A stretch of DNA of 64,000 bases from Winogradskyella sp. J14-2 (GTDB taxonomy: Bacteria > Bacteroidota > Bacteroidia > Flavobacteriales > Flavobacteriaceae): contig NZ_CP019388.1 of NCBI RefSeq assembly GCF_001971725.1, forward strand, positions 1,116,001 through 1,180,000, in the 5' to 3' direction. Position numbers and translations under genes: made by a program. Shown piece after piece: positions 19,448 through 26,634 of the stretch (the first letter of the stretch is position 1; every line of letters starts with the position of its first letter). The notes below the pieces were generated by a model. It made no database searches. It was not told the DNA's origin and was given only the letters and a program-made list of their open reading frames with translations.

Positions 19448-20236
19448 ATGAACATCCTAGATAAAATAGTAATTGACAAACGCAAAGAAGTTGCACTTCG
19501 AAAAAGCCTTATTCCTTTAAAACAATTGGAAACTTCAGTGCTTTTTGAAAGATCAACAATCTCGCTCTCTGAGCGTTTAAAAAACAGCACTTCAGGCATC
19601 ATTGCAGAGCACAAGAGACGTTCACCATCAAAATCTACAATCAACCAAAACTTGAATGTGCAAGATGTTGCTAAGGGTTATGAAGATGCTGGTGTTTGTG
19701 GCATGTCTGTGCTTACAGATGGAAAATATTTTGGTGGTTCTTTAGACGATTTATTATTAGCTAGAGCCAGTTGCAATTTGTCACTATTACGCAAAGAATT
19801 TATTATTGACACCTATCAAATCTTAGAAGCTAAAGCTTATGGAGCTGATGTCATTTTGTTGATTGCGGCAATCCTAACTAAGGAAGAAATAAAGCAATTT
19901 TCAGAATTAGCTAAAAGCCTAGATCTAGATGTTTTGCTTGAGGTTCATAATTTAGAAGAGCTTCAAAAGTCCATTATGCCAACCATTGACATGCTAGGTG
20001 TTAATAACAGAAATTTAAAAACTTTTGAAGTAAGCCTAGAAACATCAAAAACATTGAGCAATCACATTCCTGATGATTTTGTAAAAGTTTCAGAAAGTGG
20101 TATCAGTTCTATTGAAGCCATAAAGGAATTGCAACCTTATGGATACAAAGGTTTTTTAATTGGTGAAAATTTTATGAAAACTGATAATCCTGGAGAGAGT
20201 GCAACAAAATTTATAAAAGACCTAGCAGGTTTTTAA
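19448..20236 (+). CDS. trpC: Indole-3-glycerol phosphate synthase
   Basis: 262 residues, TIM barrel. Visible: IIAEHKRRSPSKS with the catalytic Lys (from EFKRxSPS), DVAKGYEDAGVCGMSVLTD, KEFIIDTYQILEAKAYGADVILLIAAIL, DMLGVNNRNLKTFEV and VSESGISS. Closes the indole ring from CdRP. The last codons (KDLAGF plus TAA) fall inside an AGACCTAGCAGG repeat, so the C-terminus may have been supplied by that element. Confidence 0.95.
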   Translation: MNILDKIVIDKRKEVALRKSLIPLKQLETSVLFERSTISLSERLKNSTSGIIAEHKRRSPSKSTINQNLNVQDVAKGYEDAGVCGMSVLTDGKYFGGSLDDLLLARASCNLSLLRKEFIIDTYQILEAKAYGADVILLIAAILTKEEIKQFSELAKSLDLDVLLEVHNLEELQKSIMPTIDMLGVNNRNLKTFEVSLETSKTLSNHIPDDFVKVSESGISSIEAIKELQPYGYKGFLIGENFMKTDNPGESATKFIKDLAGF

Positions 20237-20249
20237 AACCTAGCAGGTC
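20219..20249. repeat. Inverted repeat overlapping the trpC 3' end
   Basis: GACCTAGCAGGTTTT and AAAACCTAGCAGGTC form a hairpin with a small AGC/AGC internal loop. The trpC stop lies within it. A shorter module, ATTCCTGCCTTTGCAG (20265-20280), follows before trpF. Confidence 0.65.
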
Positions 20250-20294
20250 TAAAACAAAACACAGATTCCTGCCTTTGCAGTAATGACAGAAATT

Positions 20295-21002
20295 ATGAAA
20301 ATCAAAATCTGCGGAATGAAATATAACACAGCCGAAGTTGCAAAATTGCAACCAAACTATCTTGGCTTTATATTTTACAAAAAATCATCTCGTAATTTTG
20401 AAGGTGACATTCCAGAGTTACCAAAAACCATCAAAAAAGTTGGTGTTTTTGTTGATGAGGCAATTGAAGTCATTATGCAAAAAATTGAAAAATACGACCT
20501 TGATGCAATTCAGCTACATGGTAATGAATCTCCTGATTATTGTAAAGTCCTGAAGCGTCATTACGAGAAGCGGAGCGACGAAGTAATCTCATCAAAAGAG
20601 ACAAATTGCCACGCCCTGACAAAAAGCATCAGGACTCGCAATGACAAATTAATTGAAATCATCAAAGTCTTCAGCATCAAAGATAAATTCGACTTTAGTC
20701 AACTGCAACCTTATGAAGACTATGTAGATTATTTTCTATTCGACACCAAAGGAAAGTTACCAGGCGGAAATGGCTACACCTTTAATTGGGATGTATTAAA
20801 AGACTATCCATCAACAAAACCTTACTTTTTAAGTGGTGGTATTGGGTTAGAAGAAATGGACAATGTTTTGTCATTCATGCAGAGAGAGGAATCTAAATAT
20901 TGCCATGCCATTGATATCAACAGTAAATTTGAAATAAAACCTGGTTTGAAGGCTATTGAAAAACTAGAAGAATTTATAACCAATTTGTCATTCCGCACTT
21001 GA
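20295..21002 (+). CDS. trpF: Phosphoribosylanthranilate isomerase with in-frame repeat insertion
   Basis: 235 residues from ATG at 20295 (MKIKICGMK, the canonical TrpF start); an ATG at 20283 lies in repeat-derived sequence. Catalytic features: Cys in KICGMK and Asp in YFLFDTKGKLPGGNG. Between IQLHGNESPDYCKVLK and IEIIKVFSI lie about 30 extra residues (RHYEKRSDEVISSKE ... TRNDK) encoded by an 89-bp palindromic repeat. Without them the protein would be about 205 residues, the usual size. The insertion falls at a helix-to-strand loop and keeps the frame. The final NLSFRT is encoded by another repeat. Confidence 0.92.
   Translation: MKIKICGMKYNTAEVAKLQPNYLGFIFYKKSSRNFEGDIPELPKTIKKVGVFVDEAIEVIMQKIEKYDLDAIQLHGNESPDYCKVLKRHYEKRSDEVISSKETNCHALTKSIRTRNDKLIEIIKVFSIKDKFDFSQLQPYEDYVDYFLFDTKGKLPGGNGYTFNWDVLKDYPSTKPYFLSGGIGLEEMDNVLSFMQREESKYCHAIDINSKFEIKPGLKAIEKLEEFITNLSFRT
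20557..20645. repeat. 89-bp palindromic element inserted in frame in trpF
   Basis: Ends are inverted: GTCATTACGAG on the left and CTCGCAATGAC on the right (10 of 11 match). Inside are GGAGCGACGAAGTAATCTC and a CCTGAC...GTCAGG-like hairpin. It resembles the dispersed GTCATTGCGAG...AAGCAATCTC class of bacterial palindromes. It adds about 30 codons without a stop. Confidence 0.8.
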
Positions 21003-21047
21003 TGCGGAATCCACAATTAAAACTTTGAGATTCCTGCCTTCGCAGGA
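20990..21047. repeat. Two palindromes spanning the trpF 3' end and trpB leader
   Basis: ATTCCGCA-CTTGA-TGCGGAAT (20990-21010) covers the trpF stop codon (21000-21002). TTCCTGC-CTTC-GCAGGAA (21031-21047) ends 8 nt before the trpB ATG. Confidence 0.75.
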
Positions 21048-21055
21048 ACAAGACT

Positions 21056-22243
21056 ATGAAAAACACATACAACATCAACGACAAAGGCTACTACGGTGAA
21101 TTTGGTGGAGCCTTTATTCCAGAAATGCTCTACCCAAATGTAGAAGAACTACGCCAAAACTATCTAAAAGTAATGGCAGAACCGTCTTTTCAAGAAGAGT
21201 TTAATCAACTGCTTAAGGATTATGTTGGTCGTCCTTCTCCGCTCTATTTTGCCAAGCGCCTTTCAGAAAAATACAACACTAAAGTATATTTAAAACGTGA
21301 AGATTTAAATCATACTGGTGCGCATAAGGTTAATAACACCATTGGGCAAATCCTTATGGCAAAACGTTTAGGTAAAAACAGAATCATTGCCGAAACTGGT
21401 GCAGGACAACATGGAGTTGCTACAGCGACAGTTTGTGCACTTATGGGAATGGAATGCATTGTTTACATGGGAGAAATTGATATTGCCAGGCAAGCACCAA
21501 ACGTTGCTCGTATGAAAATGTTAGGTGCGGAAGTGAGACCAGCATTGTCAGGAAGTAGAACACTAAAAGATGCAACCAACGAAGCGATTAGGGATTGGAT
21601 TAATAATCCAGTTGACACACATTACATTATTGGCTCAGCTATTGGGCCTCATCCTTATCCTGATATGGTGACGCGATTTCAGTCTGTTATTTCAGAAGAA
21701 ATAAAATGGCAACTCAAAGAAAAAGAAGGTAAAGAAAATCCTGATTATGTGGTGGCTTGTATTGGTGGTGGTAGTAACGCAGCTGGAACGTATTATCACT
21801 TTTTAGAAAATGAAAGCGTTGGTATTATTGCTGTAGAAGCTGCAGGTAAAGGTATTCATTCTGGTGAAAGCGCTGCGACTTCAGCATTAGGCAAAGAAGG
21901 TATAATTCATGGTTGTAAAACCTTATTAATGCAAACTGACGATGGTCAAATCACAGAACCTTACTCAATTTCGGCAGGTCTAGATTATCCTGGTGTTGGT
22001 CCATTACATTCGCATTTGTACAAGTCTGGTCGTGGTGAATTTTACTCTGCCACAGATGATGAAGCTATGCAAGCTGGTTTAGAATTAACCAAATTGGAAG
22101 GTATTATTCCTGCAATAGAAACAAGCCACGCTTTAGCTGTTTTTAAGCACAAAACCTTTAAACCAGATGATATTGTTGTCATTAGTTTATCTGGTCGTGG
22201 CGACAAAGATTTACAGAATTATATTGATTATTTTAAACTTTAG
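21056..22243 (+). CDS. trpB: Tryptophan synthase beta chain
   Basis: 395 residues, standard TrpB1. PLP lysine in LNHTGAHKVNNTIGQ, the phosphate-binding CIGGGSNAAGTYYHF, ETGAGQHGVATATV with catalytic Glu region, and SGRGDKDLQNY at the end. Condenses indole with serine. It is followed by trpA; an 8-nt spaced palindrome sits directly before its start. Confidence 0.97.
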   Translation: MKNTYNINDKGYYGEFGGAFIPEMLYPNVEELRQNYLKVMAEPSFQEEFNQLLKDYVGRPSPLYFAKRLSEKYNTKVYLKREDLNHTGAHKVNNTIGQILMAKRLGKNRIIAETGAGQHGVATATVCALMGMECIVYMGEIDIARQAPNVARMKMLGAEVRPALSGSRTLKDATNEAIRDWINNPVDTHYIIGSAIGPHPYPDMVTRFQSVISEEIKWQLKEKEGKENPDYVVACIGGGSNAAGTYYHFLENESVGIIAVEAAGKGIHSGESAATSALGKEGIIHGCKTLLMQTDDGQITEPYSISAGLDYPGVGPLHSHLYKSGRGEFYSATDDEAMQAGLELTKLEGIIPAIETSHALAVFKHKTFKPDDIVVISLSGRGDKDLQNYIDYFKL

Positions 22244-25077: not shown

Positions 25078-25950
25078 ATGAAAATTATTTCAGAGTATGT
25101 TCAAATTATTTTTGGTATCATATTAGCAAGTATTGGTTTAAAAGCTTTTTTATTGCCTAATGGTTTTTTAGATGGTGGTGTTACTGGTATCGCACTTTTA
25201 ATAAGTTCTGTTTTAGATATTAATATTTCTATACTTCTGATACTTTTCAGCATACCTTTTTTAATCTTAGGTTTTTATACGGTTTCAAAACGAATTGTCA
25301 TAAAATCCATAATTAGTATTCTCGGTTTAGCGCTGTTTATTCAATTTGAAAACTTTAGTACAATTACAGAAGATAAGCTATTAATATCCATTTTTGGTGG
25401 TTTATTTCTTGGAGCTGGTATCGGGATTGCCATAAGAAATGGTTCTGTTTTAGACGGTTCTGAAATTTTGGGTATTTATCTAAATGATAAATTTGGTATT
25501 AGTATTGGCCAAATTATCTTAATTTTCAATATAGTTCTATTTAGTATTACCGCGTTAGTACTTTCAGTAGAAGTTGCGCTCTATTCTATATTAACTTACA
25601 TCGTGACTGCAAAAGTAACAGATCTAATTATAGAAGGATTTGAAGATTTTATTGGTGTTACTATTGTTTCAAAAAAATTTGAAGCAATTGAAGTTGCTAT
25701 AACAGAAGAATTGGGTACTGGTATGACACTTTATAAAGGAACAAGAGGTTTGGGCAGTTCTGGAAAAACAGAAGACTTTGACATTATACATACTATTGTT
25801 AATCGTATAGATATAAAAAAATTGTATCGTGTTGTCGATAAGATAGATCCAAAAGCTTTTATTGTTGAGTTTGATGTTAATACTGTAAAAGGAGGTGTTC
25901 TACGCCATTATCTTGATAAGAAAAAGAACAAAGTACTACCTAAGTTATAA
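25078..25950 (+). CDS. YitT-family membrane protein (DUF161/DUF2179)
   Basis: 290 residues from ATG at 25078 (an in-frame TTG lies six codons upstream). Five hydrophobic helices, with the DUF161 signature LKAFLLPNGFLDGGVTGIALL and GLFLGAGIGIAIRNGSVLDGSEILGIYL. The cytosolic C-terminal DUF2179 domain has GTGMTLYKGTRGLGSSGKTEDFDIIHTIV. Function unknown; possibly transport. It ends 6 nt into the convergent next gene. Confidence 0.9.
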   Translation: MKIISEYVQIIFGIILASIGLKAFLLPNGFLDGGVTGIALLISSVLDINISILLILFSIPFLILGFYTVSKRIVIKSIISILGLALFIQFENFSTITEDKLLISIFGGLFLGAGIGIAIRNGSVLDGSEILGIYLNDKFGISIGQIILIFNIVLFSITALVLSVEVALYSILTYIVTAKVTDLIIEGFEDFIGVTIVSKKFEAIEVAITEELGTGMTLYKGTRGLGSSGKTEDFDIIHTIVNRIDIKKLYRVVDKIDPKAFIVEFDVNTVKGGVLRHYLDKKKNKVLPKL

Positions 25951-26634
25951 ATACTCAGAGTACTGCATCACTCTAAAATCAAACGTATTAAACTCTGGAT
26001 TACTGGCTTTTAACTGTCTGTATAATGGTAATCTACTTATTGATATATTGGCTGCTCCAGATGCTGAAGTTAGTGAGACGGTTTTTATAGTTCTCTCATG
26101 CTCTTTATGAGATCCTGAAGCGAGTTCAGGATGACATAGCGTAAATTTATGAATTCTTGGCAGTTCATTAGTTACTAATTCTAGTTTCAACTTGTAGTCT
26201 CTTAGATGCTTTCTAAAGAAATATTCTGGTCCATTTTTACTATTTCCTCCTGTGAATAAAATGGTTTTAATATTAGGATACTGTTTAAGATAACCAACAA
26301 TGTCTCTCAATTTCACATTTCTCATTCCTAGATCTGAGGGATCAATTTTTTCACGTTCGCATGATGCTACAATATCGCAAACACCTATTTTGTTTTTAAT
26401 CAAAAACTGTTTGCGTTGTGTTATGGCTTTTTCAGAATTGTCGTATCTAAAATTAAGGTTATGAATCTTCTCTATAAACAGCCATAACGAATTGTAATAA
26501 CTTCCATAACAAAAATCAACATCTTGTTCTAATAAATCTCCTGTAGAAAATCTTGGAGGTGGTAAAGTGCCAACAATTAGTTTTTCGGTATCATGCTTTA
26601 TAAATGGTGAATATGGATGTTTGTGAAGAAACAC
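25945..26634 (-). CDS. Uracil-DNA glycosylase superfamily protein with repeat-derived insertion
   Basis: 229 residues, GTG start overlapping the yaaA stop (TAGTG). The N-terminus KLIVGTLPPPRFS is a UDG-superfamily-like motif I, and TILFTGGNSKNG is in the middle. Near residues 165-175 the sequence CHPELASGSHK is encoded by a TCCTGAACTCG... palindrome (26109-26137), so a dispersed repeat has been absorbed in frame. Activity on uracil is not proven. Coupled to yaaA. Confidence 0.75.
   Translation of the reverse strand: MFLHKHPYSPFIKHDTEKLIVGTLPPPRFSTGDLLEQDVDFCYGSYYNSLWLFIEKIHNLNFRYDNSEKAITQRKQFLIKNKIGVCDIVASCEREKIDPSDLGMRNVKLRDIVGYLKQYPNIKTILFTGGNSKNGPEYFFRKHLRDYKLKLELVTNELPRIHKFTLCHPELASGSHKEHERTIKTVSLTSASGAANISISRLPLYRQLKASNPEFNTFDFRVMQYSEYL
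26109..26137. repeat. REP-like palindrome inside the UDG-family gene
   Basis: ATCCTGAAGCGAGTTCAGGATGACA: inverted ATCCTGAA / TTCAGGAT with flanking GAG and TGACA. On the minus strand it encodes CHPELASGS in frame. Confidence 0.8.

Follow-up and report, generated by a model that had tools for sequence, protein, structure and literature searches.

The trpF gene of Winogradskyella sp. J14-2 carries a palindromic element within its reading frame, which raises the question of how such an element could settle in an enzyme gene without breaking the protein. We analyzed a window of 64,000 nucleotides around this gene (positions 1,116,001 to 1,180,000 of contig NZ_CP019388.1, forward strand), together with the whole genome and its relatives. 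The features of the window used below are as follows, with palindrome families designated by letters.

20264..20287, minus strand: type P palindrome in the trpC/trpF gap, overlapping the first possible trpF start codon
20283..21002, plus strand: trpF, phosphoribosylanthranilate isomerase, 239 amino acids, Pfam PRAI
20556..20646, plus strand: in-frame palindromic element in trpF, type A inverted dimer, encoding RHYEKRSDEVISSKETNCHALTKSIRTRND
20556..20590, plus strand: left unit of the type A dimer, CGTCATTACGAG...GAAGTAATCTC, with half-unit matches elsewhere in the genome
20604..20646, minus strand: right, inverted unit of the type A dimer, TGTCATTGCGAG...GGCAATT
20986..21013, plus strand: type S palindrome TGTCATTCCGCACTTGATGCGGAATCCA, providing the TrpF C-terminus LSFRT and the stop codon
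21029..21052, minus strand: type P palindrome in the trpF/trpB gap, forming an inverted S/P pair with the type S palindrome at 20986..21013
25945..26634, minus strand: uracil-glycosylase-like gene by resemblance (no Pfam match at 0.001), host of an in-frame palindrome
26111..26135, minus strand: type B palindrome in frame in the uracil-glycosylase-like gene, read as CHPELASGS

The open reading frame of trpF (20283-21002) was uninterrupted across the palindromic element, and its likely true start is the ATG at 20295, which gives a protein of 235 amino acids. The outer arms of the element, GTCATTACGAG at 20557-20567 and CTCGCAATGAC at 20635-20645, match at 10 of 11 positions, and type A tags are found at its ends (CGTC at 20556-20559 and, on the opposite strand, TGTC at 20643-20646). 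An earlier note, made from the letters of this DNA alone, had described an in-frame palindromic insert at 20557-20645 that adds approximately 30 residues to TrpF. The open frame and the matching arms confirm the insert, and the loop length confirms the added residues, as the loop of the window TrpF has 39 residues, 29 more than the 10 of the nearest clade with an empty loop; the shortest loops have 8. The net in-frame gain was approximately 87 nt; the span of 89 nt is not divisible by three. As single-stranded DNA, the 89-nt element showed a modest fold (−12.8 kcal/mol, z −2.05, 5 of 200 shuffles equally good). The motif GTCATTGCGAG, with up to two mismatches, was not enriched in the window (9 found, 8.7 expected). 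Since this frequency is at the chance level, the case for the element rests on its composite structure and on the relatives.

The inverted S/P pair was found 3′ of trpF in 11 of 94 TrpF loci. The stretch of the window that holds it (20969-21068) gave a match to the Francisella small RNA FtrB (33.1 bits, E 0.024), and this identity was not used because the score is under the Rfam threshold of 66. At the end of trpC, a short inverted repeat was observed at 20218-20250 (AGACCTAGCAGGTTTT / AAAACCTAGCAGGTCT, arms 81% complementary and 1 nt apart), which is either terminator-like or another repeat.

The position of the insert in the protein was determined using an AlphaFold model of the window TrpF, built on an alignment of 59 sequences. 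The model is a TIM barrel with a mean pLDDT of 87.9 and agrees with solved TrpF structures. Residues 96-114 are its least confident part (pLDDT below 50), and the loop with the insert is probably floppy or disordered. The earlier note had assigned the insert to a loop between the third helix and the fourth strand; it does lie in a loop, but in the model this loop connects the fourth helix (80-90) with the fifth strand of the barrel (121-127). Loops on this face of the TIM barrel point away from the active site. The 38 columns that are invariant in the 59 TrpFs flank the insert on both sides, and none falls inside it. The genome consists of one contig of 3,349,669 bp, in which the gene at 20283..21002 was the sole trpF match; we therefore infer that the enzyme with the insert must work if the strain makes tryptophan. 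The neighbors of trpF are intact-looking trp genes.

We compared the same loop in relatives. TrpF was obtained from 62 of the 68 genus genomes (six had no TrpF match) and from named relatives, giving 94 distinct proteins; 11 loci that yielded no TrpF by motif (L091, L093, L095, and L097-L104) were left out. Scoring with family consensi placed 19 palindromes in the loop, spread over 16 of the 94 TrpFs and belonging to families A, B, C, and P. Type A is carried by four proteins, B by nine, and C by three further ones, and among the nine B loops one adds an inverted P and one adds an inverted B plus C. In the set used for the tree (91 proteins, without L092, L094, and L096), 50 loops are short, 16 hold a palindrome, and 25 are longer with no family assigned. 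No loop stretch of the short class (24-26 residues) scored above shuffles. When C consensi were made from non-trpF copies only, the same four TrpFs scored at least 34. The loops of L017, L049, L052, L055, and L066 gave weak C scores of 19-23, equaled by 0-5 of 500 mononucleotide shuffles, and were not counted. Three other loops, from Gelidibacter algens (L044), Aestuariivivens (L054), and L107, resemble type A and share its start codon, but failed the A score test. Family E in L085 and family D in L043 were rejected, as literal D motifs had no matches and E was not above the control. The 13-mers over-represented across the TrpF loci were mostly conserved coding words.

The start positions of the elements, counted in codons after a conserved Cys, recur. 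Seven A or A-like proteins start at +5 (three of them A-like by eye only), 13 B, C, or similar elements from several genera start at +7, and B starts at +4 in L047 and L048. Parsimony on a tree of the TrpF core, from which the loop had been removed, required at least 13 family changes (11 for presence, 8 for B, and 4 each for A and C); this is a quick tree in which 36 of the 88 inner branches are open, and the counts are blind to the direction of gain versus loss. The earlier note had held that the additional residues would speak against its reading if distant TrpFs shared them at the same place. The same insert was found in three other TrpFs of the genus, and in additional members of the family the place is taken by other palindromes. 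Since different palindromes occupy the same place in relatives, the reading as a mobile element is favored.

A second spot in TrpF, before the last strand, is the only place outside the loop that scored for palindromes. A type P palindrome is read there as SFLRRQES in 12 of 94 TrpFs; in L016, where it covers nt 487-512 counted from the start codon, it is perfect (25 of 25), and in the window it is degenerate (approximately 20866-20895). The length of this spot equals that of relatives with AFKESPASK there, and it may represent either an in-place replacement or an ancient insert.

Close pairs of genomes allowed a finer comparison at trpF. The type A insert is present in the window genome (G000), its sister G036, G017, and one of two copies in G004, and the next relatives G001, G026, and G070 carry type B in the same loop. 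Between G000 and G001, the 30 nt before the loop are 97% identical and the 30 nt after it 93%; the corresponding values are 80% and 93% for G026 and 83% and 97% for G070. Over longer distances, G000 and these three relatives are 85-87% identical in the 210 nt before the loop and 88-92% in the 300 nt after it. Between G000 and G001, the best of these pairs, the change is restricted to the loop. G004 has a tandem trpF (L012, 1504-2199 and 2531-3142), in which one copy carries type A and the other is empty; the two copies are 91% identical over 210 nt before and 96% over 300 nt after the loop, but over the last 30 nt ahead of it the identity falls to 73%.

Among the A carriers, amino-acid conservation was 0.59-0.69 in the insert versus 0.70-0.84 in the flanks, except in the closest pair, G000 and G036 (0.87 in the insert, 0.84 and 0.93 in the flanks). 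Where amino acids were unchanged, the proportion of identical codons was 0.83-1.00 in the insert versus 0.49-0.83 in the flanks. This high codon identity hints at selection on DNA or RNA, youth, or exchange, rather than plain neutrality. We read the A insert as probably free of constraint at the protein level, and as young, exchanged, or constrained as a nucleic acid.

We searched the window genome for further copies. The full 89-bp dimer had no second full-length copy in the genome; five partial matches were found, three of them with 80-88% identity across 38-40 bp. With up to three mismatches, the type A half-unit pattern occurred at 11 places including trpF, type B (GTCATNCTGAACTTGTTTCAGNATC) at 52, and type P (GTCATTCCTGCGNAGGCAGGAATC) at 17, and the backward-read control gave no match for any of the three. 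Nine of the ten half-units outside trpF cluster within 17 kb, alongside type I restriction-modification genes; the remaining one is located at 691 kb within the gene of a chorismate-binding enzyme. Types B and P are more scattered than A, and both include regular arrays. The earlier note had described the insert as a dispersed palindrome and had taken a lack of other genomic copies to speak against its reading. The description holds in part: other families are scattered and lie in frame in housekeeping genes, and the half-unit has ten other places, whereas type A is scarce and clustered and the full 89-bp dimer is unique.

The densest stretch of A, B, and P in the genome is 9.2 kb long and starts just 5′ of trpF. 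It contains seven matches with neighbors collapsed, a number reached by none of 5000 random placements. A generic scan for GTCAT palindromes gave five matches in the window versus none in the reversed sequence, and eight matches versus ten reversed in a 400-kb sample of the genome, where three of the eight resemble B or S. Because the generic scan of the sample was no better than its reversed control, only family-specific patterns discriminate. Regular arrays were seen for type B at G000:C1:541985-543749, with spacing in multiples of 196 bp, and for type P at G000:C1:934106-934429, with a spacing of 100 bp. The locus L198 (G000:C1:128001-148000) has dense repeats with type A units at spacings of 40, 151, and approximately 180 bp. 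It also contains type I restriction-modification genes, including HsdS, and a GIY-YIG-like open reading frame; apart from the HsdS Pfam match, these gene names are our assignment by resemblance.

The B unit consists of a ATTCTGAA stem and the loop CTTGT. B, S, and P units have 8-bp stems, 4-5-nt loops (for P by inspection), and a TGTC tag, and 16 of the 20 best B copies in the window genome have perfect stems. The type A unit of trpF, read from its sequence, has an ATTAC/GTAAT pair and then no continuous stem. The transposase domain Y1_Tnp had one match in the window genome, at 24.5 bits against a cut-off of 23, in a frame of 514 amino acids, and 40 of the 68 genus genomes had none above the cut-off. 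As the sole match in the window genome is weak, the Y1_Tnp search yielded no mobilizer there.

Palindromes in frame were also found in other proteins of the window genome. In MetG, the palindrome covers residues 499-507, within the Anticodon_3 match (399-549), and in TilS it lies between the two Pfam matches. Further in-frame palindromes occur in the chorismate-binding enzyme, in a Methyltransf_30 protein, which we take to be MnmD-like, and at the C-terminus of an HsdS-like Methylase_S protein. The gene at 25945..26634, presumably uracil-glycosylase-like, has other families or none recognizable at the site 26111..26135 in other species. We surveyed three of these proteins, with sites defined by alignment, in the best 30 of 68 (MetG), 66 (TilS), and 38 (uracil-glycosylase-like) matching genomes. 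Palindromes were located at one site in 22 of the best 30 MetG proteins (19 B, 3 S), in 14 of the best 30 TilS proteins (B and C; two at the score threshold of 26), and in 14 of the best 30 uracil-glycosylase-like proteins (B, C, and one A), and some other relatives have short loops there. Four more TilS proteins and one more uracil-glycosylase-like protein gave D-like scores, with a typed consensus that has one match with three mismatches in the window genome. Matches outside the main sites were not included in these counts: three type C near frame ends in MetG, three type B with scores of 26-27 located 21 residues before the anchor in TilS, and three type P at the N-terminus of the uracil-glycosylase-like open frame. 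The reversed-sequence control for the three proteins gave no matches, and trpB, which adjoins trpF, had no palindrome matches in 101 fragments (107,709 bases). Among elements that start with TGTCA, stems were perfect in 11 of 15 for MetG, 8 of 11 for TilS, and 4 of 9 for the uracil-glycosylase-like protein. In TilS, 30 of the 66 matches across the genus had one TGA in the matched stretch, possibly located at its C-terminal end.

MetG provided two cases of change at the site itself. G003 has an S unit and G068 a B unit, with flanks 97% (90 nt) and 95% (60 nt) identical; the units differ by four changes, in which two base pairs are altered on both sides. Compensatory evolution could account for this switch, and so could an S copy that replaced the unit. 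In G000, MetG carries an intact copy of the B consensus, and a decayed form is found in G036, G070, and G001 on one side of it and in G026 and G083 on the other, in a tree with G084 and G023 as the outgroup. The decayed unit has 7-10 differences in 30 nt, whereas the 120 nt that adjoin it on each side are 88-96% identical. On this tree, the simplest reading would be that G000 regained its unit by copying; parallel decay in the relatives or recombination are the alternatives. The TilS and uracil-glycosylase-like trees pair G000 with G036, unlike the MetG tree, which makes a regain in MetG more, not less, likely.

These results are best explained, with high probability in our view, by REP-type repeats, similar to the Rickettsia palindromic elements (RPEs), that are tolerated in permissive loops and whose families turn over in place. 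A REP-type palindrome, an inverted dimer of a GTCATTRCGAG family, would have entered trpF in frame, and would be translated into a surface loop, disordered in the cell as in the model, that connects helix 4 with strand 5 on the side of the barrel opposite the active site. Length would hardly matter in this loop, so that the insert may be neutral, or close to neutral, with respect to the enzyme. The loop is a recurrent acceptor that holds different families across the Flavobacteriaceae and stands empty in many lineages, and close relatives differ in the family they carry, with almost no change in the gene around it. MetG, TilS, and the uracil-glycosylase-like protein behave likewise. Such loops may be regarded as sockets where repeats, moved or copied by some mechanism, come and go with the protein unbroken. 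Points against this explanation are the lack of a second full-length dimer, the generic scan that failed to exceed its control, the high codon identity within the A insert, the lower similarity just before the loop in G026 and G070, the weak Y1_Tnp match, the open branches of the quick tree, and the 25 long loops with no family assigned.

It is possible, although we hold it only tentatively, that CGTC-type repeats without a transposase persist by short-tract exchange at resident repeats, with the loops as standing sockets. One repeat would then give way to another copy or family, or be refreshed from it, with the frame kept. This idea draws on the MetG switch between G003 and G068, the intact MetG copy of G000, and the A versus B difference in trpF with its 97% and 93% identical flanks. 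Of these, the MetG switch is also what compensatory selection on a hairpin could produce, whereas A versus B in trpF is not.

In an alternative that we consider unlikely, the palindromes in and around trpF are domesticated RNA or DNA hairpins that act in the trp mRNA, through its stability or through attenuation in the trpF/trpB gap, and this role is the reason why the insert has been retained. The dense cluster at trpF, the recurrent S/P pair 3′ of the gene, and the codon identity within the A insert are consistent with it, and so are the many perfect stems in the three other proteins and in the B copies of the genome, although young or renewed copies would also give perfect stems. It accords poorly with the 50 of 91 loops that are short and have no palindrome, and with the occupation of unrelated genes by the same families. 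A single ancient insertion that diverged into seemingly different families would account for the recurrent start codons at +5 (seven proteins, including Gelidibacter and Aestuariivivens) and +7 (13), and for the difference between B and S, which amounts to two base pairs, both compensated. We nevertheless regard it as rather improbable, as A (approximately 90 nt) and B (approximately 28 nt) share little beyond GTCAT, B also starts at +4, and A and B occupy the same loop of G000 and G001 despite their nearly identical 30-nt flanks. At least for trpF, these sequences favor recurrent occupation over divergence of one insert.

The recurrence of exact codon positions might also be taken as target-specific insertion by a transposase that recognizes the sequence of the site. 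The use of three start codons, the other host proteins with other flanks, and a Y1_Tnp match that is weak in the window genome and missing above the cut-off in 40 of the 68 genus genomes argue against this, and we judge it very unlikely. Finally, an assembly artefact or a decaying pseudogene is hardly credible: the open frame lies on a single 3.35-Mb contig in the only trpF match of the genome, the insert is flanked on each side by invariant columns but contains none, three other assemblies contain the same insert, and no point in favor was found.

We compared the repeats of family turnover in permissive loops with known systems. GTAG REPs and REPINs, which are tied to the transposase RAYT (TnpA-REP), are short dispersed palindromes that often form inverted pairs. 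The repeats described here differ from these RAYT-mobilized elements, as their tag is CGTC or TGTC rather than GTAG and the genome has no strong Y1_Tnp gene.

A closer likeness is found with the CGTC-tagged REPs. Bacteroidetes and G. forsetii are named among their hosts, and these repeats are described with a CGTC, TGTC, or CCTC tag, an 8-9-bp stem starting with AT, and a 4-5-nt loop (Di Nocera et al. 2013, PMC3733652). They are predominantly inverted (HH) dimers, are known within open reading frames, and had no dedicated transposase found (PMC3733652). B, S, and P fit this description in tag, 8-bp stem starting with AT, and 4-5-nt loop. The type A element of trpF shares the tag and the inverted-dimer layout but has no such 8-9-bp stem, and is therefore called REP-like and not a CGTC REP. 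The earlier note had considered in-frame palindromes of this kind to be rarely described in Bacteroidota, a view that needs qualification since CGTC-tagged REPs of Bacteroidetes are already in print (PMC3733652). For recB, the same study reports that two Xanthomonas species have different REPs at approximately one site, and for other genes that the sites differ (PMC3733652), whereas here four proteins hold different repeats at one main site across a genus or family.

The comparison with Rickettsia RPEs made in the earlier note is supported as regards an in-frame palindrome in a structural loop of TrpF. As described in PMC3767692, RPE-4, RPE-6, and RPE-7 are in-frame palindromes in protein genes with frequent ATGAC (= GTCAT) ends, and different RPE groups occur near one another in orthologues. 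Similarly, in-frame palindromes were found here in trpF, MetG, TilS, the chorismate-binding enzyme, the methyltransferase, and the uracil-glycosylase-like gene. The hosts of RPEs are obligate intracellular Alphaproteobacteria and those here marine Bacteroidota. Both a hotspot and divergence of one insert are offered as explanations for RPE-4, RPE-6, and RPE-7 (PMC3767692), and the close trpF pair with nearly identical flanks separates these two possibilities.

In-frame REPs and RPEs are thus already known. As far as the literature searched shows, what is new is the breadth, with one main site per protein occupied by several unrelated families in several housekeeping proteins of a free-living Bacteroidota genus, and the close pairs that localize the change to the repeat. 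Our literature search, which had most subscription papers outside its reach and is no proof of absence, returned no account of such palindromes in Winogradskyella.

The spread of CGTC REPs, apparently without a dedicated transposase, is presented as an open question by Di Nocera et al. (PMC3733652). Winogradskyella is free-living and has described species, and its before/after pairs would make insertion, exchange, and loss readable base by base. The loops that accept approximately 10-30 extra residues may also serve as a natural map of insertion tolerance.
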